The notes below the pieces were generated by a model. It had not been told where the DNA came from. It was given only the letters and a program-made list of their open reading frames with translations, and did not search any database. Shown one piece after another: positions 25,107 to 41,933 of a stretch of 64,000 nucleotides of DNA (positions within the stretch are counted from its first letter, which is position 1; each line of letters opens with the position of its first letter). The stretch is taken from NCBI GenBank assembly GCA_022710975.1, contig JAKLGA010000001.1, forward strand, positions 62,001 through 126,000, in the 5' to 3' direction. The DNA is from Myxococcota bacterium (GTDB lineage Bacteria; Myxococcota; B64-G9). Made by a program: the position numbers and the translations under genes.

Positions 25107-27206
25107 GTGTCTGAGATCGTCAGGAAGCTGGCCGCGCTGAACCAGGCTGCCCGTGCCATGAACTCGGTCCTCGACCCGGACCGGCTCCTGGACACGATCC
25201 TGCAGCTGGTCGAGGACGTCTTCTCGCTGGACACCTGCGCGCTGCTGCTGTTCGACCCGGAGGCCGGGTCGCTCGGCATCCGCGCGGCGCGCGGCTACAA
25301 GCCCGACGTGGTCAAGACCTTCAGGGCCCGCCCGGGCCAGGGCATCACCGGCCAGGTTTACGAGTCCGGCGACCCGCTGGTGGTCAACGACGTGCGCGCC
25401 TGGCCGGGCTACATCCAGGGGGTCACGGGGGCGCGCTCGGAGATGGCCGCGCCGCTGCGCATCGACGACAAGGTGATCGGGGTGCTGGACGCCGAGACCC
25501 GGCGGCCCAATGCGTTCCTCGAGTCGGATCTCGATCTGTTCCGCATCTTCGCCAACCAGGCGGCCACCGCCATCAACAACGCCCGCCTGGTGAAGCGCCT
25601 CGAGGAGCGCACCTCCGAGCTCGAGAAGTCGGTCTCCGAGCTGGCGCTGCTGCAGCGCCTGGGCCGGCAGGTGAACTCGACCCTGTCGCTGGACGCCCTG
25701 CTGCAGGAGGTGCTCGGGCTGGCGCAGAAGGCGCTGCGCTTCGATCACTGCGCGGTGCTGCTCAAGGAGCCCGAGCCTGGCGGCCAGCCGGTGCTGGTGG
25801 TGCGCGCGGCGCTGGGCTACCGCGAGGAGGTCGCCGCGGGGCTGCGCATCCGCACCGGCGAGGGCATCACCGGGCGGGTGCTGACCACCGGCGAGCCCAT
25901 CCTGGTGCCAGACGTGAAGATGAACGGCCGCTACATCCAGGGCGTGGTGGGTGGGCGCTGCGAGATGGCCGCGCCGCTCATCGTGCGGGACGAGGTGATC
26001 GGCGTCCTGGACGCGGAGTCGGTCGAGCCCAACGCCTTCGACGAGGCGGACCTGCAGCTCTTCGCCACCTTCGCCTCCTCGGCCGCAGTGGCGCTGCACA
26101 ACGCCGAGATCCACTCCCGCCTGGAGCAGAAGCGCGTGCAGCTCGACCGCATGAACCTCGAGCTGCGGGAGTACGCCACCCGCATCGAGCAGGGCAACCG
26201 CGATCTGCAGCGGCGGGTGCGCGAGCTGGAGACGCTGCAGGCGGCCTCGCGGGCCATCACCTCCAGCCTGGATCTCGGCGAGACGCTGTCGTCCATCGTG
26301 CGCATGACCCGCGAGATCGTGGAGTCCTCGGGCTGCGCCATCCGCCTGCTGGACGAGGAGAGCAAGGAGGTCCGCACGCTGGCGGGCAGCGGCGAGGCGC
26401 CCGTCCAGACCGGCGCGGACACGACCGCCCCGGTCGCCCCGGCGCGCACCACGCTGGCGGTGCCGCTCAAGGTGGGCAGCCGGCTGATCGGCTACTTCGA
26501 GATCCGCGCCCAGGGCGAGGGCGACTTCAGCCCCGCCGACCAGCGGGTCCTGCAGGTGCTGGCCAGCCAGGCGGCCATCGCCATCGAGAACGCCCGGCTG
26601 TTCGAGAGCACGCAACAGACCTACTACGAGACCATCCGCGGGCTGGCCCAGGCGCTGGAGGCGCGCGACAGCTACACCAAGGGCCACTCCGAGCGGGTGA
26701 CGCGCTACTCGCTGGCCATCGCCGATCAGCTGGGGCTCGACCCCCACAGCCGCAAGGTGCTGCACTACGCCGGGCTGCTGCACGACATCGGGAAGATCGG
26801 CATCGCCGACTCCATCCTGCACAAGCGCCTGGACCTGTCCGACGAGGAGTGGCAGTCCATCCGCAACCACCCGCTGTTCGGCGACGCCATCCTGGGGCCG
26901 ATCCGCTTCCTGTCGGACGCGCAGAAGATCGTGCTCAGGCACCACGAGCGGTACGACGGCTCGGGCTACCCCGGCAACCTGCGCGGCGAGGAGATCCCGC
27001 TCGAGGCCCGCATCATCGCCGTGGCCGACGCCTACGACGCCATGACCTCCGACCGGCCCTACCGGCAGGCGCTGGCCCACGAGGTGGCGCTCGCGGAGCT
27101 GGTCAAGTCCTCCGGCCAGCAGTTCGACCCCCGGGTGGTCGAGGCCTTCGTGGCGGTGGTCGGGCAGGTGCGGCCGGAGCTCGGGCCCTCGGCGCGCAGC
27201 TCTTGA
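25107..27206 (+). CDS. Triple-GAF HD-GYP c-di-GMP phosphodiesterase
   Basis: 699 residues from GTG 25107 (GGAGAG 7-8 nt upstream). Upstream in-frame starts would add an Arg-rich, unlikely N-terminus. GAF domains lie at about 20-165, 190-340 and 375-490, separated by helical linkers. The first two contain near-identical blocks (RxGxGITGxV, YIQGVxGxRxEMAAPL, VIGVLDAE), suggesting internal duplication. The third is more divergent. The HD-GYP domain (about 505-690) has GHSERVTRYS, HDIGKIGI and HHERYDGSGYPGNL, all residues needed for a c-di-GMP-degrading enzyme. No membrane helix is seen, so it should be a cytosolic receptor integrating small-molecule signals with c-di-GMP breakdown. Confidence 0.92.
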   Translation: MSEIVRKLAALNQAARAMNSVLDPDRLLDTILQLVEDVFSLDTCALLLFDPEAGSLGIRAARGYKPDVVKTFRARPGQGITGQVYESGDPLVVNDVRAWPGYIQGVTGARSEMAAPLRIDDKVIGVLDAETRRPNAFLESDLDLFRIFANQAATAINNARLVKRLEERTSELEKSVSELALLQRLGRQVNSTLSLDALLQEVLGLAQKALRFDHCAVLLKEPEPGGQPVLVVRAALGYREEVAAGLRIRTGEGITGRVLTTGEPILVPDVKMNGRYIQGVVGGRCEMAAPLIVRDEVIGVLDAESVEPNAFDEADLQLFATFASSAAVALHNAEIHSRLEQKRVQLDRMNLELREYATRIEQGNRDLQRRVRELETLQAASRAITSSLDLGETLSSIVRMTREIVESSGCAIRLLDEESKEVRTLAGSGEAPVQTGADTTAPVAPARTTLAVPLKVGSRLIGYFEIRAQGEGDFSPADQRVLQVLASQAAIAIENARLFESTQQTYYETIRGLAQALEARDSYTKGHSERVTRYSLAIADQLGLDPHSRKVLHYAGLLHDIGKIGIADSILHKRLDLSDEEWQSIRNHPLFGDAILGPIRFLSDAQKIVLRHHERYDGSGYPGNLRGEEIPLEARIIAVADAYDAMTSDRPYRQALAHEVALAELVKSSGQQFDPRVVEAFVAVVGQVRPELGPSARSS

Positions 27207-27232
27207 TGCGCCGCGTCGCCAGGGCGTACAAT
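27203..27232 (+). promoter_or_regulatory. Promoter of the first MopE-like lipoprotein gene
   Basis: TTGATG (27203-27208), overlapping the HD-GYP stop codon, an 18-bp spacer and TACAAT (27227-27232), 54 bp before ATG 27287. Confidence 0.5.
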
Positions 27233-27286
27233 ACCCAGCCTGAACAGGAGATGCGCCGGGCCCGGACCCGGCAGGAGGAGCCTGCG

Positions 27287-28798
27287 ATGCGTGGCCTCGG
27301 CGTGTGCGTGCTGACCGGTCTGGCCCTCGGCGTGCTGGCGTTCGCGGCCGCGGGCTGCGGCGACGAGGGCTGCGTGGCCAAGACCGAGACCTGCGACACC
27401 CTGGACAACGACTGCAACGGGATCATCGACGACGGGTTGCAGCGCCTGTGCCAGACCGACTGCGGCACCGGCGTCGAGGTGTGCGAGGCCGGCCAGTGGC
27501 TGGGCTGCACCGCGCGCCAGCCCGCGGCCGAGGAGTGCAACGGGCGGGACGATGACTGCGACGGCTACTTCGACGAGGGCGCCAGCGGGCCCCAGCCCCT
27601 GGAGCGCGCCTGCTCGAGCGTTTGCGGCCAGGGCACCGAGCACTGCCAGCTCGGGCAGTGGGAGGGCTGCACCGCGCAGCAGCCGGTCGACGAGAGCTGC
27701 AACACCCTGGACGACGACTGCGACGGCCAGACCGACGAGGGCCTGGACATCGACGGGGACCACGACGGCCACTACACGCCGGAGTCCTGCGCCGCGCCCC
27801 ACGACGACTGCCTGGACAACGACGCGGCCGTCTTCCCCGGCCACGCCGAGGACTGCAACGGCAAGGACGACAACTGCAACGGGCAGATCGACGAGGGCTG
27901 CTCCTGCACCGTGCCCGACACCCAGCCCTGCGGCGCCACCCAGGGCGTGTGCGTGGCCGGCAACCAGGCCTGCCAGGCCGGCGGCGCCTGGGGCCCCTGC
28001 CTGGACGGCGACAACCTGCCGGTCACCCTGCCCAACACGCTGGCCGAGGCCTGCGACGGGCTGGACAACGACTGCGACGGCCAGGTGGACGAGGGCAACC
28101 CGGGCGGCGGCGGGGAGTGCGGCGTGGACACGGGCGAGTGCCAGAAGGGCACCGAGACCTGCGTGACCGTCGGCCAGACCGCCAGCCTCGAGTGCCGCGG
28201 GCTGTACATCGGCGAGGCCGCCGAGACGTTGACCGGCTGCGACGGGCTGGACAACGACTGCGACGGCCAGGTCGACGACGGGCTGCCGGGGGACGGCTAC
28301 GAGACCAACGAGGCATGCGCCAACCCGGCCGTGCTGACCGATCTCGAGGAGCTCGAGGAGTTCGCTCCGCTGCTGACCGGCGCCACCCTCTACCCGGGCG
28401 GCGACGTGGACTGGTACCAGGGCCAGGCGGTCGAGGCCAGCCACATCGATCCGAACTGCGTGAACTTCCCGGTCCCGGACCAGTACTTCGGGTTCCAGGT
28501 GAACTTCACCCCGCCGGCCTCAGCCGTCCCCGGCTACTGGGAGCAGTACCAGCTGTGCGTGGTGTTCGAGACCTGCGGCGATCCCGACGTCTACTGCACC
28601 GACCCCGACACCGACTGGCAGGCCGGCGCCGGCTACTACGCCATCGCCTTCCAGCTCATCGGCACCTGCGGCCTGGACGACTCCTTCCGCTACTACCTCC
28701 AGGTGCGCAGCGCCGACCAGGCCTCGCCGACCAGCGACTGCCACGACTATCAACTCGAGGCCCTGCTGTACTACTGCAGCACCTCGCCCTGCTCCTGA
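27287..28798 (+). CDS. MopE-like cysteine/aspartate repeat lipoprotein
   Basis: 503 residues from ATG 27287, GGAGGAG upstream. The lipoprotein signal ends FAAAGC. The N-terminal 330 residues contain at least six repeats of the form C[DN]xxDDDC[DN]GxxDEG or LDNDCDG, each with a following Cys-rich spacer. This is the motif of Myxococcota putative metal-binding proteins related to the copper-binding region of methanotroph MopE. The C-terminal 170 residues form a distinct domain without the repeats ([16 protein letters not shown] and onwards), resembling a jelly-roll or carbohydrate-binding-like module. It is probably anchored to the outer membrane and exposed. The ligand (Ca or Cu) is not established. 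Confidence 0.85.
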
Positions 28799-28812: not shown

Positions 28813-30234
28813 TTGGCAGGCAAGCTGAAACTCGTCTCGATCCTGGTCCCGCTCTACAACGAGCGGGCCTACCTGCGGCGGCTCGTGGAGCGAGTGCTGG
28901 CCGCCCCCCTGCCCAAGGGGCTGGCGCGCGAGGTGGTGGTGGTGGACGACGCCTCCACCGACGGCGGCGGGGCGCTGCTCGACGAGCTGGCGGCCTCGCA
29001 CGCGGGCGTGCTGCGCGCCTTCCACCAGCCCGAGAACCAGGGCAAGGGCGCGGCCATCGCCCGGGCCATCCAGGAGATGCGCGGGGACCTGGCCATCTTC
29101 CAGGACGCCGATCTGGAGTACGACCCGCGCGACTACGCCCGCCTGCTCACCCCCATCCTGGAGGGACACGCGGACGTGGTGTACGGCTCGCGTTTCGGCA
29201 ACGCCGGCAGCCGGCGGGTGCTCAACTTCCACCACGAGATGGGCAACCGGGTGCTGACGCTCCTGTCCAACCTGACCACGGGCCTGAACCTGACCGACAT
29301 GGAGACCTGCTACAAGGCCTTCCGGGCCGACATCCTGCGCACCATCCCGCTGCGCTCGCGCCGCTTCGGCATCGAGCCCGAGATCACCGCCAAGGTGGCC
29401 AAGCGCGAGTGCGTGGTGTACGAGGTGCCCATCTCCTACCACGGCCGCTCCTACGCCGAGGGCAAGAAGATCACCTGGCGGGACGGCCTCGAGGCCCTGT
29501 GGCTGATCGGCAAGTACGCGGTGCTGGACGACTGCTTCGAGGAGCGTTTCGGGCACGAGGTGCTGCGCTCGCTCTCCAGCACCCGGCGCTTCAACCGCTG
29601 GATGTCCGAGGCCATCGAGCCCCACCTGGGGCAGCGCATCCTCGAGGTGGGCGCGGGCATGGGCAACCTCTCGCGCCTGCTGCCCAAGCGCGAGTGGCTG
29701 ACGGTGTCCGACAAGGACCCCGAGTACGTGCGGCTGCTCACCCAGGCCTTCGCCGACTTCGACTGCGTGGACGTGGCCAAGCTCGACCTCGACTCGGACG
29801 CGGACTTCGCGCGCCTGCGGCGCCGCTACGACACGGTGGTGTGCCTGAACGTACTCGAGCACATCCAGGACGACCGGGCGGCCGTCGCCCGCATGGCCGG
29901 CGCGCTGGAGCCGGGCGGGCGGCTGGTGGTGCTGGTGCCGCAGCACCCCTTCCTCATGTCCGCCATGGACCGCGAGCTCGGCCACCACCGGCGCTACGAC
30001 CGGGGGGCGCTGCGCGCGGCGCTGGAGGCGGCCGGGCTCGAGCTCGAGTCGCTCGAGCAGTTCAACAGCCTGGCCATCCTGGGCTGGCTGGTGAACGCGC
30101 GCCTGCTGGGCCGCAAGGATCTCGGCAAGCTCCAGCTCAAGGCCTACGACAGCCTGGTGCCGGCGCTCAAGCGCGTGGAGTCCACGCTCAGCCTGCCCGG
30201 CATCTCGCTGGTCGCCGTCGGCCGCAAGCCCTGA
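28813..30234 (+). CDS. Fusion of GT2 glycosyltransferase and SAM methyltransferase
   Basis: 473 residues from TTG 28813, 14 bp after the preceding stop. GAGAGG sits about 11 nt upstream. Residues 5-245 are a GT-A family 2 domain: [26 protein letters not shown] and the DxD-type [15 protein letters not shown]. It resembles dolichyl/undecaprenyl-phosphate mannosyl- or glucosyltransferases. Residues 250-473 are a class I methyltransferase: [24 protein letters not shown] and [13 protein letters not shown]. No frameshift is needed, so both activities are on one chain. The fusion is a known architecture in which a lipid-linked or glycan product is probably both glycosylated and methylated. Substrate unknown. 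Confidence 0.88.
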
Positions 30235-30267
30235 GCTGCTCGACATGGGCTTGGCGGGTTCGAGGGG

Positions 30268-31533
30268 ATGCTGCGACCGGTGGAGAAGTCCGAGGGGCGG
30301 TTGAGGTTCAGGGACGTCTTCCTTTTGGGGAAGGCCATGCTCAACCAGTGCCGGGTCGCTCGGCCTGGATCCACGTGGAGGCTGGTTTTGGGGCATGGTT
30401 GCGGGATGCTCCTCCTCGGGGTCTGCGCTGTCGGCGCGCTGGTGGCTTGCCCGGCCGATCCCCCGGAGACTGGCGTCGCCGTCTCCAAGCAGGCGCCTGA
30501 GGCGGTAGACGCGGGGAGCGTCACCTTGGTGACGATGTTCCAGTGGAAAGAGGTCAACGATCAGGCCGCGGAGCTCTACAAGCAGGGGGAGTATGCCCAG
30601 GCCGTGGTCATGGCAGCCAGGGCCGTGCAGCTCGCCGAGCGAGCCTTCGGGCCTTACGCCCTGCAGGCGGCCACCAGCCTGAACAACCTGGGTACGATCC
30701 AAAACAACCTCGGCAGGTATGCGGAGGCCGAGCCGGTCCTCCGGCGCGCCCTGGCGATCAGGGAGAAACGGTTGGGCAAGGCGCATCCGTTGGTCGGCAT
30801 CTGCCTCCACAACCTCGCGCTGCTCTACGAGGATCTCGAGCGCAACGAGGAAGCGCTGGAGTGCATCCTGCGCTCGATCGCCATCGCCGAGCAGGTCTCC
30901 GGGCCAGAGCACCCCGACGTGGCTCTCCGGCTGAACGTCTTGGCGAGTATCCACCGGAGCCATCGCCGGCTTGCAGAGGCCGAGCAGGTCTACCTGCGCG
31001 CGCTGGCCATCCAGGAGAAGGCGCTAGGTCCTGAGCATCGGGACGTCGCCACCACCCTGCACAACCTCGCTGGCTGCTACAACGAGCTGGGCCATTTTGC
31101 GAAGGCCGAGCCCCTCTACCTGCGTGCCCTCAAAGTGTGGGAAAAGGAGCTCGGCCCGGACCACCCCAACCTGGCCTCCAGCTACGGCGCCATCGCGGAT
31201 GTCTTTGTCCTGCGGGGCCGTCTTGACCAAGCGGAGGTGCTACTCAAGCGCGCGCTGGCGATTGACCGACGGGTCGCCGGTCCAGATCACCCGCTGGTCG
31301 CGTCTGACCTCAGCAGCCTGGGGTTTGTTTTCCTCCTTCAGGGACGGCTCGAGGATGCTGAACTCTATCTCAAGCTTGCGCTGGCCATCCGAGAGAAGAC
31401 CCTGGGGCCTGATCACCCTGACCTCGTGGGCACCCTCAAGCCGCTGGCACTGCTCTTTCGGAAGACCGGTCGAGAGGCCAAGGCCAAGTCCCTCGAGGCC
31501 CGTGCGGAGTCCATCCAGGGGGTCGAGCGCTGA
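30268..31533 (+). CDS. TPR (kinesin-light-chain-type) lipoprotein
   Basis: 421 residues from ATG 30268. An in-frame ATG at 30337 (GGGGAAGG upstream) would give 398. A hydrophobic segment ends in a lipobox, VGALVAC. From about residue 95 there are seven 42-residue TPR units of the KLC/TPR_10/12 type, each with a LYxRALAIxEKxLGPxHPxVA-like core. Such repeats make protein-protein scaffolds. The first 24 codons are strikingly similar to those of the membrane-protein gene at 31843. Base composition is less GC-rich than the flanks. It is unrelated in sequence to the big TPR protein at 36.7-41.9 kb. Confidence 0.85.
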   Translation: MLRPVEKSEGRLRFRDVFLLGKAMLNQCRVARPGSTWRLVLGHGCGMLLLGVCAVGALVACPADPPETGVAVSKQAPEAVDAGSVTLVTMFQWKEVNDQAAELYKQGEYAQAVVMAARAVQLAERAFGPYALQAATSLNNLGTIQNNLGRYAEAEPVLRRALAIREKRLGKAHPLVGICLHNLALLYEDLERNEEALECILRSIAIAEQVSGPEHPDVALRLNVLASIHRSHRRLAEAEQVYLRALAIQEKALGPEHRDVATTLHNLAGCYNELGHFAKAEPLYLRALKVWEKELGPDHPNLASSYGAIADVFVLRGRLDQAEVLLKRALAIDRRVAGPDHPLVASDLSSLGFVFLLQGRLEDAELYLKLALAIREKTLGPDHPDLVGTLKPLALLFRKTGREAKAKSLEARAESIQGVER

Positions 31534-31599
31534 GCCATTCCCGCCTTCTCCTGCCTCTGTTTCGATGAATGCCCCGCCCCCGCTGATAGGTGCTCGCTG
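31534..31599. other. Start of a gene-free stretch (31534-31842)
   Basis: No gene is supported between the TPR gene and the small membrane protein gene (309 bp). The stretch is occupied by the repeat at 31600-31792 and the hairpin at 31798-31817. The remaining bases show nothing recognisable. Confidence 0.6.
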
Positions 31600-31792
31600 A
31601 AAGGTGCCAGCCACCCATAGAATGGGTGCCGTGTCCGGGTGTTGGCCGATCCCGCGTGTGTGAATCGCCCCGGGCAGTCCCTCGAGAGGGGAGGACAGGG
31701 GAAGGTCAGGAGGGCGGCCCAGCCTGGCTCTCGCCTTCCCTCACATCCTCGAAGAATGCCCGGAGCGATCCACACACGGGGGGTCTGCCAAC
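31600..31792. repeat. Inverted-repeat element, full copy A
   Basis: The core 31641-31792 is 152 bp long and roughly 90% identical to the copy at 36070-36221. It begins GTTGGCC and ends GCCAAC. The arms continue as imperfect inverted repeats: CGTGTGTGAATCGC near the left end is matched by GCGATCCACACACG near the right. The whole unit can fold into one long hairpin. Just upstream, AAGGTGCCAGCCACCC and a perfect 7-bp hairpin (CACCCAT/ATGGGTG, 31612-31628) are also shared in part with copy B. No open frame inside looks like a gene. Confidence 0.8.
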
Positions 31793-31797
31793 GTCTG

Positions 31798-31817
31798 CTC
31801 CGGGGGTTTGCCCGGAG
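31798..31817. repeat. Hairpin following element copy A
   Basis: CTCCGGG / CCCGGAG, a 7-bp stem with a 6-nt loop, 5 bp beyond the element end. The other full copy is also followed immediately by a hairpin of different sequence. Confidence 0.55.
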
Positions 31818-31842
31818 GGCAGGGCAGGCGTAGGGTCGGGGC

Positions 31843-32289
31843 ATGCTGCGGCCGGCGGAGAAGCCCGAAGGGTGGCTGAGGTTCCGGGACGCCGTGCGGC
31901 TGGGGCAGGCGCTCGTCATCCAGGTCTGCCTGTTCTTGCTGGCGGCCTTCCTGCTCTCCCTCCTCCACAAGTGGCCGAGCGGGGTGTTCGGGCTGGACCT
32001 CGTGCTGTGGCTGTTCGCGCTCGCGGGCTCCAGCCTGGGGCTGGCGGCCGTGTGCCTGGGCGTGCGCCGGGCGCGCTTCGGCGGCCTCCAGGACGGCGCC
32101 CGCCACGCGCGGACCCATGTGCTCGCCATGAGCGGCAACCTGGTGCTGGGGCTGTTGCTGCTCGCGAGCTTCGTGCCGCTGCTCGGGGATGAGAAGAACC
32201 GGATCGCCTGGGTGCTGCTGGTGGGGGTGGGCGGTGTGCTGGCGCTCTTCGCCCTCCTGCGGCTCGGCCTCTACCTGCTCCGGTCCTGA
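31843..32289 (+). CDS. Small integral membrane protein of unknown function
   Basis: 148 residues with four predicted membrane helices (about 25-45, 55-75, 95-115, 122-145) and a short Arg-rich loop. I do not recognise the family. Its first 22 residues (MLRPAEKPEG, then LRFRDAVRLGQA) closely match the first residues of the TPR lipoprotein at 30268, although the remainder is unrelated. The start codon is the only early one in frame, and the Shine-Dalgarno (GGGTCGGGGC) is weak. It lies between an inverted-repeat element and a second TPR lipoprotein. Confidence 0.65.
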   Translation: MLRPAEKPEGWLRFRDAVRLGQALVIQVCLFLLAAFLLSLLHKWPSGVFGLDLVLWLFALAGSSLGLAAVCLGVRRARFGGLQDGARHARTHVLAMSGNLVLGLLLLASFVPLLGDEKNRIAWVLLVGVGGVLALFALLRLGLYLLRS

Positions 32290-32356
32290 GAGTGAACGTG
32301 GTACCATCGTGGCTGGTTTGGGGGGAGGGGCGAGAAGCGACATGAGGAGCGGGGCG

Positions 32357-34267
32357 ATGGGCTGGCGAATCACGGGCGTGGTGTTGATTGGCCTAGCCTG
32401 TTTGGAGCCGGGGTGCATTGCCACCTCGGACTGGGCGTTCAGTCCGGGAGGTGCGGTGCTCGGTCTCGCCTCTGAGCACCTGCGGGTCCGTGAGGCCAAG
32501 CTCGCAAAGCACCAGGGCACCTTGCCCACCACCGGCGCCTGCGCCGATGGGGAAATGGGGGATGGGTTGGCATTGCGCTTGGCTGAGGCCAGCCTCCTGG
32601 TCATGCAGGCACGCTTCCCGGAGGCTCGCCAGGCAGAGGAACTCTTGCTCGCTCGGCTGGCAGCCTGTGAGGTGAGTGGTCCGGGCATGGTGCTCGTGCT
32701 GCTCACCCTGGCCGAGTTGGCGCGCATCCAGGACCGCCACCAGGATGCCCTCGGGTTCCTGCGCCGCGGCTTGCTGGAGCTGGGTCCCGAGACCTCTGCC
32801 ACGGGCCGCGGCTTCAGGGTGCAGCTCCACATGTCCATGGCCGCCAGCATGATGGCCAGGGGACAGCTTCGGGAAGCTCTCGAGGAAGCCGACTCCGCGC
32901 TCGAGCTGGTGGAGAGCTACCATGACGACGGTTCTTCCAGGTTCGATGAATGCAGCCGCTATCTCGGTGCGATCCAGCTGCACGCGGTCATGGCGGATCT
33001 CTTGCGTAGGCTCGGTCGCTCGGCTGAGGCCCGACACCACGAGTCCACCCTGGAGGAGTTGCTCGGCGCCCGAAGTCGTGGCGCCACGTGCTCGTCGGGG
33101 CGCGATTCTACACCCGTCGAGCTGGCGTCTCGGCTCCTGTCGGAGGACGGACCGCCTGACTGCGATCCCGCCAGGGCATACCTGGAGGCGCACGGGCAAG
33201 GCTTCTTCGAGGAGCCGGAGAGTGTCCTGGATGCCCTCCAGGCCGTACTCAAGTGCGCTGAGAGGCATGAGCGGCACGTCGATGCAATGCTCTGGGGAGG
33301 GCGCTGGATGGCGATCGCGGCTGCTCTATTCGGCCCTGACTCTCTCGAGGGTGCAAGGGCTGAACTGGATTACGCCGTTGTCGAATTCCGCCTGGACAGG
33401 CCCGCGCAGGCGATCACCAGGCTGGAGTCGTTGCGCCAGCGAATGCAGGCTCGGATGGGCGGAGAGCACTCCCTTCTGGCAGCCATACTCGACTGGCAGT
33501 CCTACCTGAGCTGGCAGGAGGGGAGGATCGAGGAGGCTGTGGCTCTCGGTCGTGCAGCCTGGGGGATGTACCGACGGGTTCTGGGAGACATTCACGAGAA
33601 GACGACCGAAACACTCGGACGCCTGGTGAACCTGGCCAGCCAGTCGAAGCGGAGCCCAGAAGCTGCCTACTTCCTTCGCGAGCAGCGCCGCGTTTGGCTG
33701 GCGGACGTGACGAAGACCAAAGCCGAGTTGGCTGCCCAGGCCGACCTGCTCGCCGCGTGGGAGTGTCAGGCCGGCAACTGCGCGGGCTGCGAGGCCGCGC
33801 TGCATGACGCCTTCTCCGCGGGGGACGAGGCCGGACAGATCGACGCCAGGACGCGCGCCGAAGGCTGGTACCGCCTGGTCAGTTGCCAGATGCGCAACGC
33901 CCCTTTCCCCGATCCTGTCCCCGCGGCCCAGCGATGCCTGGAGGCGGGTGGCGACGGAGCGCTCGAGACCTGGCAAGCGCTCGATTGCCTCTACACCATT
34001 GTCAACGCGCGGCTGGGCACGAGGGATGGCCAGGCCGCCCTGGATCTGCTGGACACCTGGGCGCCGAAGGTGATCGAAAAGATGTCCCCCGCGCAGTTGA
34101 AGAGGTGGCACCAGACCCGCGCCTTCACCCTGCGCGCCCTGACCAGGTTCAACGAGGCAGCACAGGAAGACGAGCTGGCCGGAAGACTGCCCGAGAGCGA
34201 TGGCGCGCCACCACCCACCCCGGCGCCCGCCGATGCCCCAGGCCTGTCGGGACCTCCCCCTCGATGA
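32357..34267 (+). CDS. TPR-like lipoprotein
   Basis: 636 residues from ATG 32357, chosen for AGGAG 7 nt upstream. An ATG 15 bp earlier is possible. The N-terminus MGWRITGVVLIGLACLEPGC reads as a lipoprotein signal, with Cys20 as the likely modified residue. The rest is almost all helical, with degenerate TPR/SEL-like pairs, for example FPEARQAEELLLARLAACE, GQLREALEEADSALELVE and GRIEEAVALGRAAWGMYRR. The tail is Pro-rich. Several cysteines (CSSGRD, CQAGNCAGCE) suggest periplasmic disulfides. No enzymatic motif is visible. Codon use is less GC-biased than the chromosomal neighbours. It probably acts as an assembly scaffold with the other TPR lipoprotein at 30.3-31.5 kb. Confidence 0.8.
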   Translation: MGWRITGVVLIGLACLEPGCIATSDWAFSPGGAVLGLASEHLRVREAKLAKHQGTLPTTGACADGEMGDGLALRLAEASLLVMQARFPEARQAEELLLARLAACEVSGPGMVLVLLTLAELARIQDRHQDALGFLRRGLLELGPETSATGRGFRVQLHMSMAASMMARGQLREALEEADSALELVESYHDDGSSRFDECSRYLGAIQLHAVMADLLRRLGRSAEARHHESTLEELLGARSRGATCSSGRDSTPVELASRLLSEDGPPDCDPARAYLEAHGQGFFEEPESVLDALQAVLKCAERHERHVDAMLWGGRWMAIAAALFGPDSLEGARAELDYAVVEFRLDRPAQAITRLESLRQRMQARMGGEHSLLAAILDWQSYLSWQEGRIEEAVALGRAAWGMYRRVLGDIHEKTTETLGRLVNLASQSKRSPEAAYFLREQRRVWLADVTKTKAELAAQADLLAAWECQAGNCAGCEAALHDAFSAGDEAGQIDARTRAEGWYRLVSCQMRNAPFPDPVPAAQRCLEAGGDGALETWQALDCLYTIVNARLGTRDGQAALDLLDTWAPKVIEKMSPAQLKRWHQTRAFTLRALTRFNEAAQEDELAGRLPESDGAPPPTPAPADAPGLSGPPPR

Positions 34268-34351
34268 GACCTGCGCCTCCCGGAAGGGCGCCAGCCCACT
34301 GCAGCGAGCGGGCGCCTGCCGCCTCGGCTGCCCGCCCTTCACCCTCCAGGC

Positions 34352-34389
34352 GATGCCCTGAGCGATCCACACACGCATGCTCGGCCAAC
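34352..34389. repeat. Inverted-repeat element, partial copy D (right arm)
   Basis: GATGCCCTGAGCGATCCACA continues to GGCCAAC at 34389 and matches the right terminus of the 152-bp element (compare 36184-36221). The left arm is absent or diverged beyond recognition. Confidence 0.65.
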
Positions 34390-34453
34390 GCGCGTTCTTC
34401 GTCGGGAGGGGGGCGGTGGATCAGCCCGGTTCGCTTCGCTCACCGGACAAGCA

Positions 34454-34487
34454 GGACTCTCAGCGCGCCTCCGGCGCTTGAAAGTCC
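34454..34487. repeat. Hairpin with GCGCGCC...GCGCTTG core (first of two)
   Basis: GGACTCTC (34454-34461) pairs with GAAAGTCC (34480-34487), with one mismatch, around an inner GCGC/GCGC stem and a TCC loop. The core matches the hairpin at 36241-36272 while the outer arms differ, yet stay complementary. Confidence 0.65.
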
Positions 34488-34518
34488 AGTCTTCGCCTTG
34501 GGAAACAGGCTCGAATAT

Positions 34519-34842
34519 CTAGTGCAGGCGGGTGACCGGATCCCCGGAACGGACCGTGGCCAGATCCGTCTTCAGCTCGGACACGTCCCGCTTCAGGACG
34601 CGCACGTCGCCCGCCAGGTCGAGCACCGCCTGCTCGATGCGGTCCATGCGACCTTCCATCCGTTCCATGCGACCGTCCAAGCGGTCCATGCGACCTTCCT
34701 GGCGATCCATCCGTAGCTCGAGCTGGTCGAAGCGGGCGTCGTGCCTCGTGAGGTGCTCGTTGGCCATGACCACGCCGTCGGCGACGGCCTGGATGGTGGA
34801 CTTGAGATCCTCGATCATCACACCGAGGTCGTTCAGCTCCAT
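34519..34842 (-). CDS. Small heptad-repeat coiled-coil protein
   Basis: 107 residues from MELNDLGVMIEDLKS, with GGAGG 5 nt before ATG 34842. The middle consists of four 7-residue repeats of the form [MG]RMDR[LQM][ED]G, encoded by an obvious 21-bp DNA repeat at about 34641-34715. Helical segments with heptad spacing (VLDLAGDVRVLKRDVSELKTDL) lie on either side. It should form a long parallel coiled coil or trimer. No other domain is visible. Similar small proteins are scattered in bacterial genomes without assigned function. It sits alone in a repeat-rich, otherwise gene-poor tract, and its last codons overlap a GTGACCGGA repeat. Confidence 0.7.
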   Translation of the reverse strand: MELNDLGVMIEDLKSTIQAVADGVVMANEHLTRHDARFDQLELRMDRQEGRMDRLDGRMERMEGRMDRIEQAVLDLAGDVRVLKRDVSELKTDLATVRSGDPVTRLH

Positions 34843-34990
34843 GGCGCCTCCAGGGTAGGGGACCACGCGGCGGAAAGCAACCGCCAGGTGACTGCGATTC
34901 GTCGGCTCATCCGTGCAAGCGAGATGCCAAGGCGCAGAGACAGAGATTCCGGGGTGTTGCATGGGAGCTCGACCCGGGACGAACAGTCGC
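34843..34990. other. Start of a gene-free stretch (34843-35218)
   Basis: No gene is supported between the coiled-coil gene and the broken NYN gene (376 bp). The first 150 bp hold nothing recognisable beyond a possible weak promoter for the coiled-coil gene. The rest is palindromes and a truncated copy of the inverted-repeat element. Confidence 0.5.
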
Positions 34991-35031
34991 GTGACCGGAT
35001 TTCCCGGACACCGTGCCCGGATTCCGGACAC
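34991..35031. repeat. Paired GTGACCGGA-type palindromes, copy 1
   Basis: GTGACCGGATTTCCCGGACAC is followed at once by CGTGCCCGGATTCCGGACAC, two related dyads in tandem. A comparable pair lies at 35996-36035, and a half-copy GTGACCGGATCC at 34532-34543. Confidence 0.6.
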
Positions 35032-35061
35032 AGCGCCCGGAGGGTACTGTCGCCCCGCAGG

Positions 35062-35183
35062 GAAGGTGCCATCCACCCGCGGCCGTGTCCTGGGCCTTGG
35101 CCGATCCCGCGTGTGTGAATCGCCCCGGGCAGTCCCTCGAGAGGGGAGGACAGGGGATGATCAGCAGGGCGGTCCAGCCTGGC
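35062..35183. repeat. Inverted-repeat element, partial copy B (left half)
   Basis: It shares AAGGTGCCA.CCACCC and then the left arm of the element with copies A and C up to about 35183, after which similarity stops abruptly. The right arm is missing. The break lies 36 bp from the end of the frameshifted NYN gene. Confidence 0.7.
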
Positions 35184-35218
35184 GCGGCACCGGACTGCGG
35201 GGGGCTGGTACCAGTCAG

Positions 35219-35744
35219 CTACCGATAGTCGACTGGGTCGATGCAGGCGTCGTAGGTCCCGCGATCGAGTCGGATCCAATCGGTGCCGTTGATGCCCCGC
35301 CTGTTGTGGTACGTGGGGCTCACAGGGACTACGCTGGCGACCTTGAGCCAGCGCTGATGCTCGATGGAGATGGCCCGCACCTCGTCCGCGACCTCGGACA
35401 GATCCTGGTCCCTGGCTGAAGAGCACGGCCACCTCGAACTCTCGTCGGCTGGCGAGGCGGATGACGTCGAGGGCGAGGCGCACGTCGACGCCCTTCTCCC
35501 GGCCGACCAGCACCGACCTCTCGAGCCCGTCGACGATGGCCACCTCGTTCCGGTACCGCAGGGGTCGGGTGAAGGACCAGATGCCCCTCGTTCCCATGAC
35601 CGCCAGCTTGCGCTGCCAGAAGGAGTGCCAGCGAGGATTCACCTCCCGGTCCGGGACCCCGGTGTAGAACCTGATCTGGCTGAGCCTCCAGTCCCTCTGT
35701 CTGCAGATCGCCAAGGCCAGCGAGCCCACGTCCCACCCTCCGAG
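35219..35744 (-). pseudogene. NYN/LabA-like (DUF88) gene remnant, N-truncated and frameshifted
   Basis: Read on the minus strand, the frame begins just after TAG with LGGWDVGSLALAICRQ and continues through RIRFYTG-like QIRFYTGVPDREVNPRW, RNEVAIVDGLERSVLVGREKGVDVRL and ALDVIRLA to EVAVLFSQ. There a GGG (35410-35412) in place of GG shifts the frame. Removing one G restores DQDLSEVADEVRAISIEHQ and so on to PVDYR and TAG at 35219-35221. This is the NYN (PIN-like nuclease) family of predicted RNases. The N-terminal strand with the first catalytic Asp (typically FIDGxN) is absent and is replaced by a terminator. Both lesions argue for a dead gene. A sequencing error could explain only the frameshift. 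Confidence 0.75.
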
Positions 35745-35745
35745 C

Positions 35746-35792
35746 TAGAAACACAAAACCCCGCTGGAGGCCTCGCGGCTGATCCAGCGGGG
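35746..35792 (-). terminator. Strong intrinsic terminator upstream of the NYN remnant
   Basis: On the minus strand CCCCGCTGGA (35792-35783) pairs perfectly with TCCAGCGGGG (35768-35759). GCC/GGC pairs inside the loop, and TTTTGTGTTT follows. It would end transcripts coming from about 35.8-35.9 kb. It lies directly behind a tRNA-like sequence. Confidence 0.75.
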
Positions 35793-35840
35793 AGCAGATG
35801 GTGCAAGTATCCAACCTGCGATGACCGGAGTCAACTCCTG
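35793..35840 (-). pseudogene. Possible tRNA 3'-half relic
   Basis: On the minus strand AGTTGACTC is followed shortly by GGTCATCGCAGGTTGGATAC and TTGCACC. GCAGG-TTGGATA-CTTGC has the size and stem of a tRNA T-arm, with loop consensus TTCGAAT changed at C56. The upstream letters resemble the anticodon/variable part of bacterial tRNAs with a deletion. No matching 5' half or acceptor strand was found, so it is at most a relic. Confidence 0.3.
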
Positions 35841-35995
35841 CCCCCTCTCGTCCTCTAGCCCAGCAAACTTCGGGCCAAGCGGCCGGTCCTTCTGCAGGGC
35901 GCGCGAAGATGCACGCAGCCCCTCGGAATCACGACGGTCCTGGGCGCGAAGGGCGAGGTGCCAGGCCCAGGGCGTGCTGGCCCTCGGGTCGGCGG

Positions 35996-36035
35996 GTGAC
36001 CGGAATCCGGTCACGGTGTCCGAGAAAACCGGACA
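35996..36035. repeat. Paired GTGACCGGA-type palindromes, copy 2
   Basis: GTGACCGGA-A-TCCGGTCAC (35996-36014) is a perfect 9-bp dyad around one base. TGTCCG...CGGACA (36017-36035) follows. It is equivalent in layout to the pair at 34991-35031. Confidence 0.65.
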
Positions 36036-36069
36036 TGTGCAAGGGACCAGGTGCTGGTGGCGCCGGAGA

Positions 36070-36221
36070 GTTGGCCAATCTCGCGTGTGTGAATCGCCCC
36101 GGGCAGTTCCTGGAGATGGGAGGGCAGGGGATGATCAGCAGGGCGGCCCAGCCTGGCTCTCGCCTTCCCTCACATCCTCGAAGAATGCCCTGAGCGATCC
36201 ACACACGGGGGGTCTGCCAAC
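36070..36221. repeat. Inverted-repeat element, full copy C
   Basis: 152 bp, exactly the length of copy A core, from GTTGGCC to GCCAAC, with the same inner arms GTGTGTGAATCGC and GCGATCCACACAC. Most differences from copy A are in the left arm (36108-36140). The right arm is nearly identical. No open frame looks coding. Confidence 0.8.
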
Positions 36222-36223
36222 GT

Positions 36224-36236
36224 CCCCCTTCGGGGG
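36224..36236. repeat. UUCG-type tetraloop hairpin after element C
   Basis: CCCCC-TTCG-GGGG gives, in RNA, a C(UUCG)G tetraloop on a 4-bp GC stem, 3 nt after the element end. Such loops are favoured in RNA, hinting that the element is transcribed. Confidence 0.5.
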
Positions 36237-36240
36237 CTAA

Positions 36241-36272
36241 GTTTCCTGCGCGCCCCAGGGGCGCTTGGAAAC
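36241..36272. repeat. Hairpin with GCGCGCC...GCGCTTG core (second of two)
   Basis: GTTTCC (36241-36246) pairs with GGAAAC (36267-36272). Inside, GCGC pairs with GCGC and CCC with GGG around a CA loop, and TT is bulged on the 3' side. Core and bulge match the hairpin at 34454-34487, and the outer stem does not. Confidence 0.7.
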
Positions 36273-36389
36273 CTGGCCCCCCCATGCGCGGGTCCCCCTC
36301 GAGGAGAACAGCGAGTCCGGCCACTGACGAAGTCCGCGGGATCAGGGACGGCGCGGGGCGCGTGCGTCGAGGAACCTCTCCTGGAGGAA

Positions 36390-36740
36390 TCAAAGCAGCC
36401 TGACCAGGGCGGAGATCAGGGCGGCGATCGCCAGCAGGCCCGACAGCAGGATCACCGGGAAGGGCCAGCCGGGCAGATCGTCCGTGTCCACGCTCACCCC
36501 CTCCGGGGCGAGCTCGGCCGCCCGGGCGCGGGCCTCCTCGGGCGGCACCCCGCGCGCGGCCTGTTCGGCCAGGAACTGCCTGGCCGCCAGCGCCACCTTG
36601 CAGCGCCGCAGGTAGAGGGTCAGCAGGAGCGCCAGCGGGCTCAGGCCCGCGGCCACCCCCGCGACGATCCAGGCCTGGCCCAGGGCGTAGAGCCCCGCGG
36701 CCGCGAGCCACAGCGCGCCGATGACGAGGGGGACGATCAT
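36390..36740 (-). CDS. Small membrane protein downstream of the giant TPR gene
   Basis: 116 residues with two hydrophobic helices near the N-terminus (MIVPLVIGALWLAAAGLYAL, then WIVAGVAAGLSPLALLLTLYL) and one at the C-terminus (PVILLSGLLAIAALISALVRLL). An Ala/Glu/Arg-rich soluble stretch (about 50-90) lies between them. I do not recognise the family. It begins 9 bp after the stop of the 1,727-residue TPR gene, so the two are almost certainly co-transcribed. It may anchor or recruit the TPR protein at the inner membrane, which is inference from position only. Confidence 0.65.
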   Translation of the reverse strand: MIVPLVIGALWLAAAGLYALGQAWIVAGVAAGLSPLALLLTLYLRRCKVALAARQFLAEQAARGVPPEEARARAAELAPEGVSVDTDDLPGWPFPVILLSGLLAIAALISALVRLL

Positions 36741-36749: not shown

Positions 36750-39700
36750 TCAGCTCAGGATGGTCAGCTTCAGGCGGGTGCGCAGGTTGAAGTACTCCTC
36801 GCTGACCGCGAAGCGGAAGAGCTCGCTGATGACCGGCTGGGGGGTGAAGGCCGCCACCATCTCGGCCGTGCTGGCGAAGCGCCGGCCGGCCAGATCCGAG
36901 CGCTCGCGGCTGAGGTGCATGACGGCGTTCGGCAGGTCGGCCGAGAGCGCCAGGCCGGCCCGCACCGCCGAGTGCTCCACCCCGCGCAGGTACGCGTCGT
37001 AGTCCGGCCGGCGCTGCAGCGCGGCCTGCTGGCCCGGGCTCGAGAGCAGCTCCTCGACGGCCTTCCTGGCCTTGCGCGAGATGGCCTTCTGTACGCGCTT
37101 GGCGAAATCCGCGGACAGCTGACCCGGGAAGGTGGCCAGGGCCGAGCCGGAGGCGGTGGGCTGGACCAGCGCGGCGATGAGCTGGGGCAGGTCGCGTGGC
37201 CCGAGCTTGGACGCCAGGAACGAGCCGTCCACCAGGCGTTTCAGCGCCCGCGCCAGGGCGAAGCGCTGCTCCTTGACGTTGGTGTGCTTGACCAGGCTGT
37301 CGCCCACCACGATGGAGAGTGGATCGGTGTTCTCCACGAACACCAGGTGGGTCGGCTTGGTGGAGCGGTACAGCTCGTACTCGAGCGTCCCCAGGGTGGC
37401 GAGCAGGCTGTCGCACAGGGTGCGCAGCGGGTCGTCGGGCCGCACGCGGTCGGCCTTGCCCACCCCATGCTGAGCCAGATCGCCCGGGAAGAGCTTGCAG
37501 AACTCCTTGCCCGCGAGCTGCAGGATGGAGCGCACCGGGCCGCGCTCCTCGGGGTGCACGACGAGCCGCTCCACCTCCTCGGCCGAGAGCCGCTCGCTGG
37601 TGCGCTCGGGCAGCTTGGCGGCGTTCTCCCCGTAGAAGAACTCCTCGTTCTGATCGGCCGCGCGCAGGTGGTGCAGCACGGCGCACACGGCGAACACCTT
37701 GTCGTGGGCGCGCTGCTCGTCGAAGATGCGGCGCATCTCGTGCAGCGACTCCAGCCGGAAGGGCTGGAGCGCCAGCAGCCTGCGGTGCACCTCGACGGCG
37801 TTGGCGTAGTACAGGCCGGTCTTGCCGTACAGCGCGGCCAGGGCCACGTGGGCCTCGGCGTGGCTGGGATCGAGCTCGAGCACCCGCTTGTACTCCAGGA
37901 TGGCCTTGTCGGCGGCGCCGAGCTTCTCTGCCTGGAGCTGGCCCATCTGCATGTGCAGCGCGATGGCGTCCGCCGTCCGCTCGGGCGGCAGCAGGCCCAC
38001 GGCCGACTGCAGGGAGGCCACCAGATCGGCCCAGCGCTCCAGGCGCGCGTACAGGCCGCCCAGGCGCTGGACCACGTCCAGGTTGCCCGGCTGGAGCTGG
38101 TGGATGCGCTGGTAGGTGGCCACGGCCTGGGCCGCGTCGCCCAGCCCGACCTCGTGCACCTGGGCGAGATCGAGCAGGTAGACGATCTGGTTGGCCGGGT
38201 CGGCCGCGGCCATGCGCTCGAGGATGCCGGCCACCTCGGGCCACTGCTGACGGGCGGTGTGGATGGCCCGCAGGCGGGTGAGCGCCTCGGGGTGATCGGG
38301 ATCCCGGTTGAGCACCTGGCGCAGGTGGTGCACCGCGCGATCGAGATCGGGCCGCTTCTCCTGGAAGATGACGCCCAGCCGCAGGTGGGCCGCCAGCCCC
38401 GCGGTCGGCTCGATCGGCAGCTCCAGCAGCCGGCTGATCAGCGTCACCGCCTCGTCCCAGCTCTGCAGCTCGAAGGTCAGCTCCGACAGCGCCGTGAGCG
38501 CTGCCAGGTGCCCGGGCACCAGGCGCAGCACCTCGCGGTAGTGGGCCGAGGCCTCCTCGGGCCGCTTGAGCTGGGTGCGCAGCAGGCCGCCAAGCTTCGA
38601 GTTGAAGTCGAGCTGGCTCGGGGTGTCCTCGGCCACCTGCAGCCGCAGCTGGTAGAGCTCCACCAGCCGGGCCCAGTCCTGCTGGGCGATCAGCAGGGGC
38701 TCGAGCTGGGTGTAGGCCTGGGCCTCGCGCGGGTTGCGCTGCAGCACCTGGAAGAAGCACTCGATGGCCTGGGGCGTGGCCTGGAACTGGTCGCGGTACA
38801 CCTGGCCGGCCAGCAGGAGGTTGGCGATGGCCTGGTGCGGGTCGTGCGTGAGCTGGCCCTCGCGGTTCAGCATGTCGATGGTGGCCTGGGCGTTGCCCAT
38901 GGCCTGGTAGAGCCGCTTCAGCGCCTTGACCGCCGGCAGGCTGTCTTGCTGGAGCCGGAGCGCCTCCTGGCAGTAGTGCACCGCCGCGGCCGGGAGGTTG
39001 AGCCGGGTCTCGGCCAGGTCCGCGATGCGCAGGCACAGATCGGCCGCCTCGTCCGCGCCGTGCACGAAGGCGAGCTCGCGCTCGTACAGCATGCGCAGCC
39101 CGTGCCAGGTGCCGAACTTGTGGTACAGGATGTCGAGCGCGCGGGCCGCCTCGAGGTTGCCGGGCTCCAGGTGGAGGAGCTTCAGGTAGTGGCTGGAGGC
39201 GTTCTGCGGCGGCTGGACCCGGTTCTCCTTCAGGTCCGCCAGGCGGGACTGCAGGGCGGCCTGGAAGCGCCCGTCGGCCACCCGCGCGGACTGGGCCTCG
39301 TACACCCGCAGCAGGGCGGCGTAGTTGCGCTGCTGGAGGTAGATGCGCTCGAGGGCCTCCAGGGTCGGCATGTGCCCCGCGTCCAGCGTCAGGATGCGCT
39401 CGTAGCACTCAGCCGCGCGCACCAGATCGTTCAGCTCGCCCGCGTACAGGTCGGCCATGCGGTACAGCAGCTCCACCTGGCGCGCGGCGGAGGTGGCGGC
39501 CTTCAGCTCCCGCTCGTGCAGGCCGAGCAGCTCCCGCCAGGCCCGGGTCTGGGAGTAGAGGCGCACCAGGGCGTGGGTGGTCGGGCCGTGCTCCGGGATG
39601 AGCGTCAGGATGCGCTGGTAGGCGTCCACCGCCCGGTTCACCTGGCCCAGCTTGTGCTCCCAGATCTCGGCCGACTGGAACAGCGCCAGGGCCTTCTGGG

Positions 39701-41933
39701 CCGGGTCCTCGAGGGTGTTGGCCTCCTGCTCGATGGCCTCGATGAGCCCCTCCCAGTCGCCGCGCTTGCGGTGGATGCGCCGCAGCGCCTTGAGGGCCGG
39801 GAAGTGCCCCGGCAGCAGGCGCAGCACCTCGCGGTAGGAGCCGACGGCCTGGTCGATCTCGTTCAGCCGGTCCTCGTACAGCTCGCCGATCTTGAACAGC
39901 AGGGTGACCTGCTGGGCGGGGTTCTGGGTGACCTCCATCTCCTGGCGGTACATGGCGATCAGCTCGACCCAGCGCCCCTTGACGAAGTACAGCCGGCCCA
40001 GGCTCTGCAGGGCCGGCAGGTAGGAGGGCGACAGCACCAGGGCCTGCTGGTACAGCTCGATGGCCTTGTCCTTGTCGTTCAGCTTCTCCTCGTAGATCTC
40101 GCCGTTGCGGTGCAGCAGCGCCACGACCTGCTTCTGGTCGTTGACCAGCTGGCCCTCGAGCTCGTTGATGCGCACCATGTCGGCCCAGCGGTCGACCCGC
40201 GAGTACAGCTTCCCCAGCGCCCGGATGGCCGGCACGTGGTTGGGGCTGACCTCCAGGATGCGCTGGTAGGTCTCGATGGCCTTGTCGACGTTGTTGAGCT
40301 TCTCCTCCCACAGGGCCCCGACCTTGTCCAGCAGGAACACCACCTGATCGTGGTCCTGGTTCCCGGCCAGCTCGCGCTCGTACATCTGGATGAGCGCCTC
40401 CCAGCGGCTGAACTTGGTGTACAGGCGGCTCAGGGCCTGGATGGCGGGCAGGAAGCCCGGGTTGTGCTCCAGGCAGCTCTCGTAGCGCTGGATGGCCTCG
40501 TCGTGGCGCCCCAGGCGCTCCTCGAGGATCTCGGCCAGCTTGTAGGTGCGGTTGACGCGCTGCTTGGGATCCTGGGCCTCGCGGACCTCCACCTCGTACA
40601 TGCCCACCAGCTGGGCCCACATGCCCTTGCGGTAGAAGAGCTTGCCCAGGGCCTGCAGCGCGGGCAGGTAGGCGGGGTCGAGCTCGACCACCCGCTGGTA
40701 ACAGGGGATGGCCTGGTCCTCGTTGAAGAGCTTCCCCTCCCACAGGGTGCCGAGCTTGAAGTGCAGGGCCACCAGCTCCTGGCGGTCGGTGATGACCTGC
40801 ACCTGGCGCTGGATGATGGGGATGAGCTCCTGCCAGCGCATCAGCCCCTCGAGCGTGAGGGCCAGCTCGGCCAGCACCATGTGGTCGCCCGGGCTGAGCT
40901 CCAGCGCCTTCTGCAGCGCCTGGATGGCCCGCTCGTCGTCCCCGAGCTGATCCTTGAGCAGGCGCGCGGCCCGGTACATGCGCTCGCTGGCCGCGCCCGG
41001 CTCCTCCAGGGTGGCCGCCTCGGCCAGCAGGAGCCCCACCAGCGGCTCCCAGTTGCTCGCCTCGGTGTACAGGCGTCGGAGCGCCTGCATGGCGATGGGG
41101 TTGCGGGGATCGCGGGCCAGCACCTGGCGGTACAGCTCCTCCGCGCCGGCCGCGTCCTTGCCCTGGCCGAGCCGCATGCGGGCCAGGCTGAGCAGCAGCT
41201 GGACGGCAACCTGCGGGTCGGAGGCGCGCTCCAGCAGGAGCTCGCGGAGCTCCACGACCCGGCCCCAGTCGCTGGCCGCGATGGCCAGCCGCTCGAGCTG
41301 CCGGAGCACCTCCACGTGGCCCGGGCTCTCCTTGAGCGCCGCCTCGTAGGCCGCGCGCGCGTCGTCCACCCGGCCGAGCTTCTCCTCCAGGATCCGTCCG
41401 CGGGTGTGCAGCAGGTGGGCGCGCAGGCTCGGGTCCGCGACCGCGCCCAGCTCGGAGTCGATGATCTGCACGGCCACGTTCCAGTTGCCCACCTGGGAGG
41501 CCAGGCGGCGGGCGGCCCGGATGTTGGGCAGGTAGCCGGGCTGGAGCTGGAAGGCGCGGTTGTAGCACTGCCAGGCGTTGCGCGGCTGGGCCAGCTTCTC
41601 CTCCCAGATGCGCCCGCACTCGTAGTACAGCCGGGCCGCCTCGGGCAGCTCGCCCAGGGTGGCGATCTCGCGCTCGTACTCGGCGATCAGCGCCTGCCAG
41701 GTGGGCGCCTGGCGCGGGTCGTAGGGCGCGGGCTGGCTGCCCGGACCGCCCGCGAGCGGCAGGCTCTCGGCCGGCGCGGGGCTGTCCTCGGCCAGGTGCA
41801 CCTCGATGGCCGGAGGCAGGGACTCCACCGACACTTCGATGCCCGAGGCGGGCGGCTCGGAGACCTGCACCTCGGGGGCCGGGGCGGCGCCTGGCGCCTG
41901 GGGGTTCCGGAGGTCCTGGGGATCCTGGCTCAT
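36750..41933 (-). CDS. Giant TPR-repeat protein (1,727 residues)
   Basis: Starts MSQDPQDLRNP at ATG 41933 with GGAGGG about 8 nt upstream. There is no signal peptide. The first 90 residues are Pro/Glu-rich and disordered. From about 95 to 1,400 the chain is a regular array of TPR pairs with a period near 73-75 residues. Each pair contains forms of LYxEKLNDxDKAIExYQRxLxLxPxHxPALxALxRLY. A conserved-looking C-terminal domain of about 280 residues follows (EEVERLVVHPEERGPVRSIL to LRTRLKLTILS), without repeats or known motifs. Cytoplasmic TPR proteins of this size occur in Myxococcota without known role. The membrane protein behind it may be its anchor. Confidence 0.88.
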   Translation of the reverse strand: MSQDPQDLRNPQAPGAAPAPEVQVSEPPASGIEVSVESLPPAIEVHLAEDSPAPAESLPLAGGPGSQPAPYDPRQAPTWQALIAEYEREIATLGELPEAARLYYECGRIWEEKLAQPRNAWQCYNRAFQLQPGYLPNIRAARRLASQVGNWNVAVQIIDSELGAVADPSLRAHLLHTRGRILEEKLGRVDDARAAYEAALKESPGHVEVLRQLERLAIAASDWGRVVELRELLLERASDPQVAVQLLLSLARMRLGQGKDAAGAEELYRQVLARDPRNPIAMQALRRLYTEASNWEPLVGLLLAEAATLEEPGAASERMYRAARLLKDQLGDDERAIQALQKALELSPGDHMVLAELALTLEGLMRWQELIPIIQRQVQVITDRQELVALHFKLGTLWEGKLFNEDQAIPCYQRVVELDPAYLPALQALGKLFYRKGMWAQLVGMYEVEVREAQDPKQRVNRTYKLAEILEERLGRHDEAIQRYESCLEHNPGFLPAIQALSRLYTKFSRWEALIQMYERELAGNQDHDQVVFLLDKVGALWEEKLNNVDKAIETYQRILEVSPNHVPAIRALGKLYSRVDRWADMVRINELEGQLVNDQKQVVALLHRNGEIYEEKLNDKDKAIELYQQALVLSPSYLPALQSLGRLYFVKGRWVELIAMYRQEMEVTQNPAQQVTLLFKIGELYEDRLNEIDQAVGSYREVLRLLPGHFPALKALRRIHRKRGDWEGLIEAIEQEANTLEDPAQKALALFQSAEIWEHKLGQVNRAVDAYQRILTLIPEHGPTTHALVRLYSQTRAWRELLGLHERELKAATSAARQVELLYRMADLYAGELNDLVRAAECYERILTLDAGHMPTLEALERIYLQQRNYAALLRVYEAQSARVADGRFQAALQSRLADLKENRVQPPQNASSHYLKLLHLEPGNLEAARALDILYHKFGTWHGLRMLYERELAFVHGADEAADLCLRIADLAETRLNLPAAAVHYCQEALRLQQDSLPAVKALKRLYQAMGNAQATIDMLNREGQLTHDPHQAIANLLLAGQVYRDQFQATPQAIECFFQVLQRNPREAQAYTQLEPLLIAQQDWARLVELYQLRLQVAEDTPSQLDFNSKLGGLLRTQLKRPEEASAHYREVLRLVPGHLAALTALSELTFELQSWDEAVTLISRLLELPIEPTAGLAAHLRLGVIFQEKRPDLDRAVHHLRQVLNRDPDHPEALTRLRAIHTARQQWPEVAGILERMAAADPANQIVYLLDLAQVHEVGLGDAAQAVATYQRIHQLQPGNLDVVQRLGGLYARLERWADLVASLQSAVGLLPPERTADAIALHMQMGQLQAEKLGAADKAILEYKRVLELDPSHAEAHVALAALYGKTGLYYANAVEVHRRLLALQPFRLESLHEMRRIFDEQRAHDKVFAVCAVLHHLRAADQNEEFFYGENAAKLPERTSERLSAEEVERLVVHPEERGPVRSILQLAGKEFCKLFPGDLAQHGVGKADRVRPDDPLRTLCDSLLATLGTLEYELYRSTKPTHLVFVENTDPLSIVVGDSLVKHTNVKEQRFALARALKRLVDGSFLASKLGPRDLPQLIAALVQPTASGSALATFPGQLSADFAKRVQKAISRKARKAVEELLSSPGQQAALQRRPDYDAYLRGVEHSAVRAGLALSADLPNAVMHLSRERSDLAGRRFASTAEMVAAFTPQPVISELFRFAVSEEYFNLRTRLKLTILS

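Follow-up and report, generated by a model that had tools for sequence, protein, structure and literature searches.

A lineage-restricted family of intergenic 42-bp repeats, probably of REPIN/MITE type, in a Myxococcota genome

Copies of the repeat in the window

The window is the whole 64,000-nucleotide stretch analysed here, C1:62001-126000 of a host genome of 7.13 Mb (29 contigs, 98.6% complete). Between a TPR gene ending at 31533 and a small membrane-protein gene (31843-32289) it carries a 152-bp element with inverted-repeat ends, which recurs in full, truncated and solo form alongside a separate palindromic repeat, here called motif C.

31641..31792, + strand: full paired element 1 (left arm 31641-31680, spacer 31681-31751, right arm 31752-31793)
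34349..34390, + strand: solo right-arm unit, 82 bp past the stop of the second TPR gene
34992..35031, no strand: palindromic motif C, separate repeat family (GTGCCCGGATTCCGGACAC core at 35013-35031), 64 bp from the truncated element
35096..35183, + strand: truncated element with left arm and partial spacer, right arm absent
35996..36035, no strand: palindromic motif C, separate repeat family (GTGACCGGAATCCGGTCAC core at 35996-36014), ~55 bp from element 2
36070..36221, + strand: full paired element 2 (left arm 36069-36110, right arm 36181-36222)

Repeat and genome searches recovered, in their places, all four copies (two full, one left half, one right end) that a sequence-only reading of this DNA had described. 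The full copies, judged by eye to be about 90% identical, proved to be 94% identical over 155 bp (repeat family D1, 31641-31795 and 36070-36224, with a third copy from 35096); the truncated copy (35097-35183) aligns at 92% in the genome search, and the right end at 34353-34390 (repeat family D5) is 84-87% identical to the remaining right ends. The complementary ends noted in that reading are confirmed in the sequence, the termini being GTTGGCC...GCCAAC followed by the arms GTGTGTGAATCGC and GCGATCCACACAC, and the long hairpin that it proposed folds far beyond dinucleotide-shuffled controls on both strands (z of -5.0 on the + strand and -5.6 on the - strand, with 0 of 200 shuffles as good).

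Two further features of the segment may be recorded. The window ORFs at 30268 (TPR protein) and 31843 (small membrane protein) have similar N-terminal peptides, MLRPVEKSEGRLRFRDVFLLGKA and MLRPAEKPEGWLRFRDAVRLGQA, and are unlike in the remainder. The region 34833-35858, between the truncated and the second full element, resembles the remnant of a broken gene, and its frame 34833-35729 has no Pfam match.

The replicated unit and its copies in the host genome

A 161-bp query matches 51 places in the host genome, and most of these matches cover just one end of the element. An iterative profile built on the fetched loci identifies the replicated unit as the 42-bp arm of the hairpin, with sharp edges and unconserved flanks, the one exception being a pyrimidine-rich stretch of ~15 bp immediately inside the unit. 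The consensus of the arm, AGAATGCCCKGRGCGATYCACACACGSRGGRTCTGCCAACG, has its AAC end facing outward and is not self-complementary; column statistics and mutual information over 57 units reveal no paired columns, so that the single unit, in contrast to the 20-40-bp palindromes of REPs, is not a palindrome and the hairpin is formed only by two units together. With a 44-position profile, a sequence-only model built from 46 arms, 86 genome matches are obtained at E<=0.1, of which about 56 are strong, and the family occupies ~50 loci with unrelated flanks across most contigs. Hence, the fixed 152-bp unit of the sequence-only reading stands insofar as paired copies exist, but the 42-bp arm, found solo, paired in inverted orientation or tandemly arrayed, gives a better account of the repeat. 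The search of the host genome which that reading had suggested thus yields many further copies, and its statement that all copies lie within 5 kb is false genome-wide.

A handful of positions distinguish left-type from right-type arms, and a diverged subfamily is present on contigs C5 and C8. The possibility of cluster-specific sequence subfamilies was considered and dropped, there being only a weak trend (identity 0.737 versus 0.715, with 154 of 2000 permutations as high).

Arrangement and genomic context

Units occur as roughly 37 solos, as outward inverted pairs of the 152-bp type and as a few tandem arrays. Solos outnumber pairs in the host genome: complementarity searches detect clear outward pairs and a further set of weaker outward ones, and leave ~40 arms unpaired within 300 bp. 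Strong close pairs comprise 7 outward, 4 direct and 1 inward, and inverted (outward) pairs are therefore over-represented. The diverged C5 subfamily also forms outward pairs, of about 150-165 bp, and direct arrays with 46-48-bp spacing are found on C5, C17 and C24. Mean identity is 0.819 for paired units and 0.780 for solos.

The context of the units was analysed in 666 kb of fetched regions picked around them, so that all comparisons are within-sample; a codon-based caller written for this analysis predicts 543 genes there, at 87% coding. Despite this coding density, all 64 scored units are intergenic, with no gene overlap. Convergent intergenic regions are enriched, making up 15 of the 48 regions that hold units versus 39 of 270 in the sample, whereas divergent regions account for 8 of 48 versus 78 of 270. 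Loci also cluster along the genome, 31 of 49 having a neighbour within 10 kb when random placement gives a mean of 6.2 and a maximum of 21 in 2000 trials; the local clustering of copies noticed in the window is thus real, and only its restriction to 5 kb is incomplete. An abundance of paralogous gene families beside units was also considered and rejected (paralogues within the sample exist for 24 of 85 adjacent genes, versus 144 of 458 others), and the enrichment of a palindromic motif B (GGTGCCAGCCACC-like) adjoining units is only mild. At one locus (L041 2609-5280, C10:50.6-53.3 kb), xerC-hslVU adjoin three units and short, poorly conserved genes.

Distribution in related genomes and sequence collections

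The 42-bp family is absent from all 8 genomes of the same family, and 49 genomes of the same phylum give no credible match, the 20-bp partial matches near threshold in two of them being read as chance; the comparison with relatives proposed beforehand thus points to a narrow distribution. A 21-base exact pattern hits one unrelated contig in 84,980 GTDB species genomes (the host genome is possibly not among them) and none in IMG/VR, and plasmid and phage collections contain no match to the repeat.

Every window copy lies in a lineage-specific segment of ~8 kb (28813..36740). In one genome of the same family (G002), window genes 25092-27206 and 36750-41933 have adjacent orthologues, as do 27206-28798 and 36750-41933 in another (G006), and hence the copy-bearing segment is absent from both. 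Since the nearest genomes compared belong to other genera, these junctions do not amount to an empty site.

RAYT-like genes and motif C

Five Y1_Tnp (RAYT-like) genes are encoded in the host genome; the four that were tested against the RAYT model all fall below its cut-off. The palindrome of motif C (GTGACCGGAATCCGGTCAC), exact or diverged, lies 160-340 bp upstream of all five (L036 9463, L037 6782, L044 8570, L045 8840 and L046 8905), and the ~250-bp region upstream of a RAYT-like gene recurs in L036 without the gene. Motif C has about 27 loci in the genome, none of them within coding sequence in the sample, and is probably the REP family of these five genes. The RAYT-like genes were thus discarded as owners of the 42-bp unit, given that they carry motif C upstream instead, though two of them lie within about 2 kb of units. 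Five copies of motif C are found within 180 bp of a 42-bp unit, always on its outer side, which hints at, and does not prove, a shared insertion space or shared machinery.

As the sequence-only reading had it, the element has no transposase gene of its own: Pfam detects no transposase in about 25 proteins encoded between or beside units. Target-site duplications, which it had recommended looking for, receive no support: among 14 paired elements, duplications of 2-10 bp do not occur consistently. IS200/IS605-type and REPIN elements are likewise not known to carry target-site duplications, and their absence here is hence not decisive.

Nature and origin of the repeat family

Alignment of 12 paired elements exposes bipartite conserved blocks at both ends (CGTTkGC...CGTGTG), and only 3 of 19 consensus pairs have a compensatory double change in any sequence, with a covariation term of -0.14 kcal/mol. 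The arms conserve their sequence, almost without compensatory change, which argues for DNA-level terminal repeats and against a structured RNA, and points to arms that would be recognised as sequence. On this evidence it is probable that the repeats constitute a non-autonomous intergenic family of the REPIN/MITE type with the 42-bp arm as its basic unit, most likely small parasitic DNA elements unable to move alone. Of the three options that the sequence-only reading had left side by side, MITE or REP-like element is therefore upheld, by a family that is dispersed, intergenic in every scored copy and hairpin-forming where copies are paired, with no transposase of its own, and structured RNA is not, for want of compensation and of an Rfam family.

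We infer that the family works like a REPIN. A putative transposase would bind the arms as terminal repeats, and the paired form would be the one that moves, folding into a hairpin when single-stranded. Most solo arms would then represent remnants or one-sided derivatives, and an arm already in place might grow into a tandem array by slippage or by successive insertions. A candidate enzyme is a RAYT-like (Y1) transposase acting in trans; alternatively, the arms may derive from an extinct source element.

Bacterial MITEs are short, non-autonomous, intergenic elements with terminal inverted repeats. The present element shares with them its short, non-coding and intergenic nature and its terminal inverted repeats, but solo ends predominate, and because the analysis yielded no target-site duplication and no parental transposon, it does not count here as a proven MITE. 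With the REPIN/REP system and its RAYT (Bertels and Rainey 2011, PMC3116915) it has in common an intergenic and dispersed location, inverted hairpin pairs, solos and tandem clusters, as well as paired units slightly better conserved than solos, a trait of REPINs (PMC3116915). It departs from that system in its unit of 42 bp, in which no GTAG/CGTC tag is seen by eye, and in a majority of solos, whereas REPIN pairs dominate over solos in P. fluorescens (PMC3116915); since its unit lacks palindromic symmetry and flanks no RAYT gene, it is not classed among the REPs. The TIR families with TIRYT transposases (PMC3733652) resemble it in their longer, non-REP terminal repeats and in their single, dimeric and grouped copies, but the unit was not found to flank a cognate tyrosine transposase gene here. 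Most published REPs are situated downstream of genes (PMC3733652), and for this reason the enrichment of units in convergent regions is counted in favour of the REPIN/MITE type. The family is thus a new, lineage-restricted one of a familiar kind, and not a new kind of element.

Other readings of the same data must be weighed against this one. A larger transposon that has escaped notice, with terminal inverted repeats of ~40 bp, could have left the units behind as its decayed ends, and internal deletion could have turned it into the 152-bp pairs, which would then be classical MITEs. The distinct left-type and right-type arms, the bipartite end blocks and the conservation of arm sequence over pairing would all fit such an origin, but we hold it to be unlikely, given that about 25 proteins encoded between or beside units have no Pfam transposase match, that target-site duplications are absent and that solo ends and 46-48-bp tandem arrays are atypical of MITEs. 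Still less probable is a hairpin acting as a structured RNA or as a transcript-end element, that is, an mRNA terminator or stabiliser. It would account for the strong fold on both strands and for the surplus between convergent genes; nonetheless, most copies are solo arms lacking a partner, compensatory change is nearly nil, units between tandem genes take both orientations about equally (19 the same, 17 opposite), and the Rfam search of the window yields no family at cut-off, with nothing but sub-threshold animal microRNA models when the region is scanned permissively.

The two remaining readings retain hardly any credence. In an integron-like cassette system, units would be recombination sites and direct units would part segments of one or two genes; neighbouring loci within clusters on C24, C27, C17 and C29 do tend to share orientation, and one cluster starts 77 bp from a tyrosine recombinase gene. 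That recombinase, however, is XerC beside HslVU, no integron integrase scores above cut-off, the unit ends (GTT...AAC) are the reverse of attC (RYYYAAC...GTTRRRY), genes do not take the orientation of the units, and adjacent genes are no richer in paralogues, so that this reading is largely refuted. Simple segmental duplication of one intergenic segment, with no mobility, had been named beforehand as an outcome that would undo the mobile-element view, and the high identity of the window copies, together with the long flanks common to some clusters (e.g. the identical 55 bp upstream of three C24 units), is in line with it. As a source of the whole family it is refuted by the ~50 loci on most contigs, with their unrelated flanks, and by the flanking genes, which are not duplicated, but it may be the source of individual neighbouring units.

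The present data thus add an orphan family of small, putatively mobile repeats, restricted to one lineage, to a poorly studied high-GC bacterial family; its end sequence is unlike that of classical REPs and it has no obvious enzyme. Apart from this family and from the heptamer coupling described below, the findings are ordinary genome biology.

Heptamer arrays beside the unit

Among the short tandem repeats of the intergenic DNA analysed, period 7 is the most frequent, and (GTTCCNN)3+ arrays number 32 genome-wide. Ten of them lie within 40 bp of a unit, all on its inner side and on the same strand (three of the units concerned are weak profile matches), when about 0.1 arrays would be expected by chance within 100 bp of a unit. 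The regions picked around units had suggested a near-exclusive association, which was scaled back once the genome scan placed the remaining 22 elsewhere, many of them on C23:497-535 kb and frequently paired in inverted orientation.

Xanthomonas and Nostoc are known to possess intergenic heptamer repeats (PMC4692102), and the available extract of that report describes 7-bp tandem arrays that are mainly intergenic and in some cases form inverted pairs, as they do here. It contains no mention of heptamers coupled to a repeat unit, whereas in the host genome some (GTTCCNN)n arrays abut the 42-bp unit on one fixed side. One may conceive of a composite selfish element, a 42-bp terminal unit carrying its own 7-bp satellite, with the solo form [heptamer arrays]-[C-rich linker]-[42-bp unit]; a mechanism able to create or lengthen heptamer arrays on the unit's inner side would assemble and propagate both parts as one. 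We regard this, however, as a doubtful proposition. The fixed-side coupling itself offers a testable lead on the origin of bacterial intergenic heptamer repeats.

Distant from any 42-bp unit, the stretch C23:497525-535337 of the host genome (G000) holds a dense group of (GTTCCNN)n arrays with many closely spaced inverted pairs. A palindromic heptamer layout, (GGTATCG)n-GTTTAAAC-(CGACACC)n, surrounds GTTTAAAC at 14910-14983 of locus L053.
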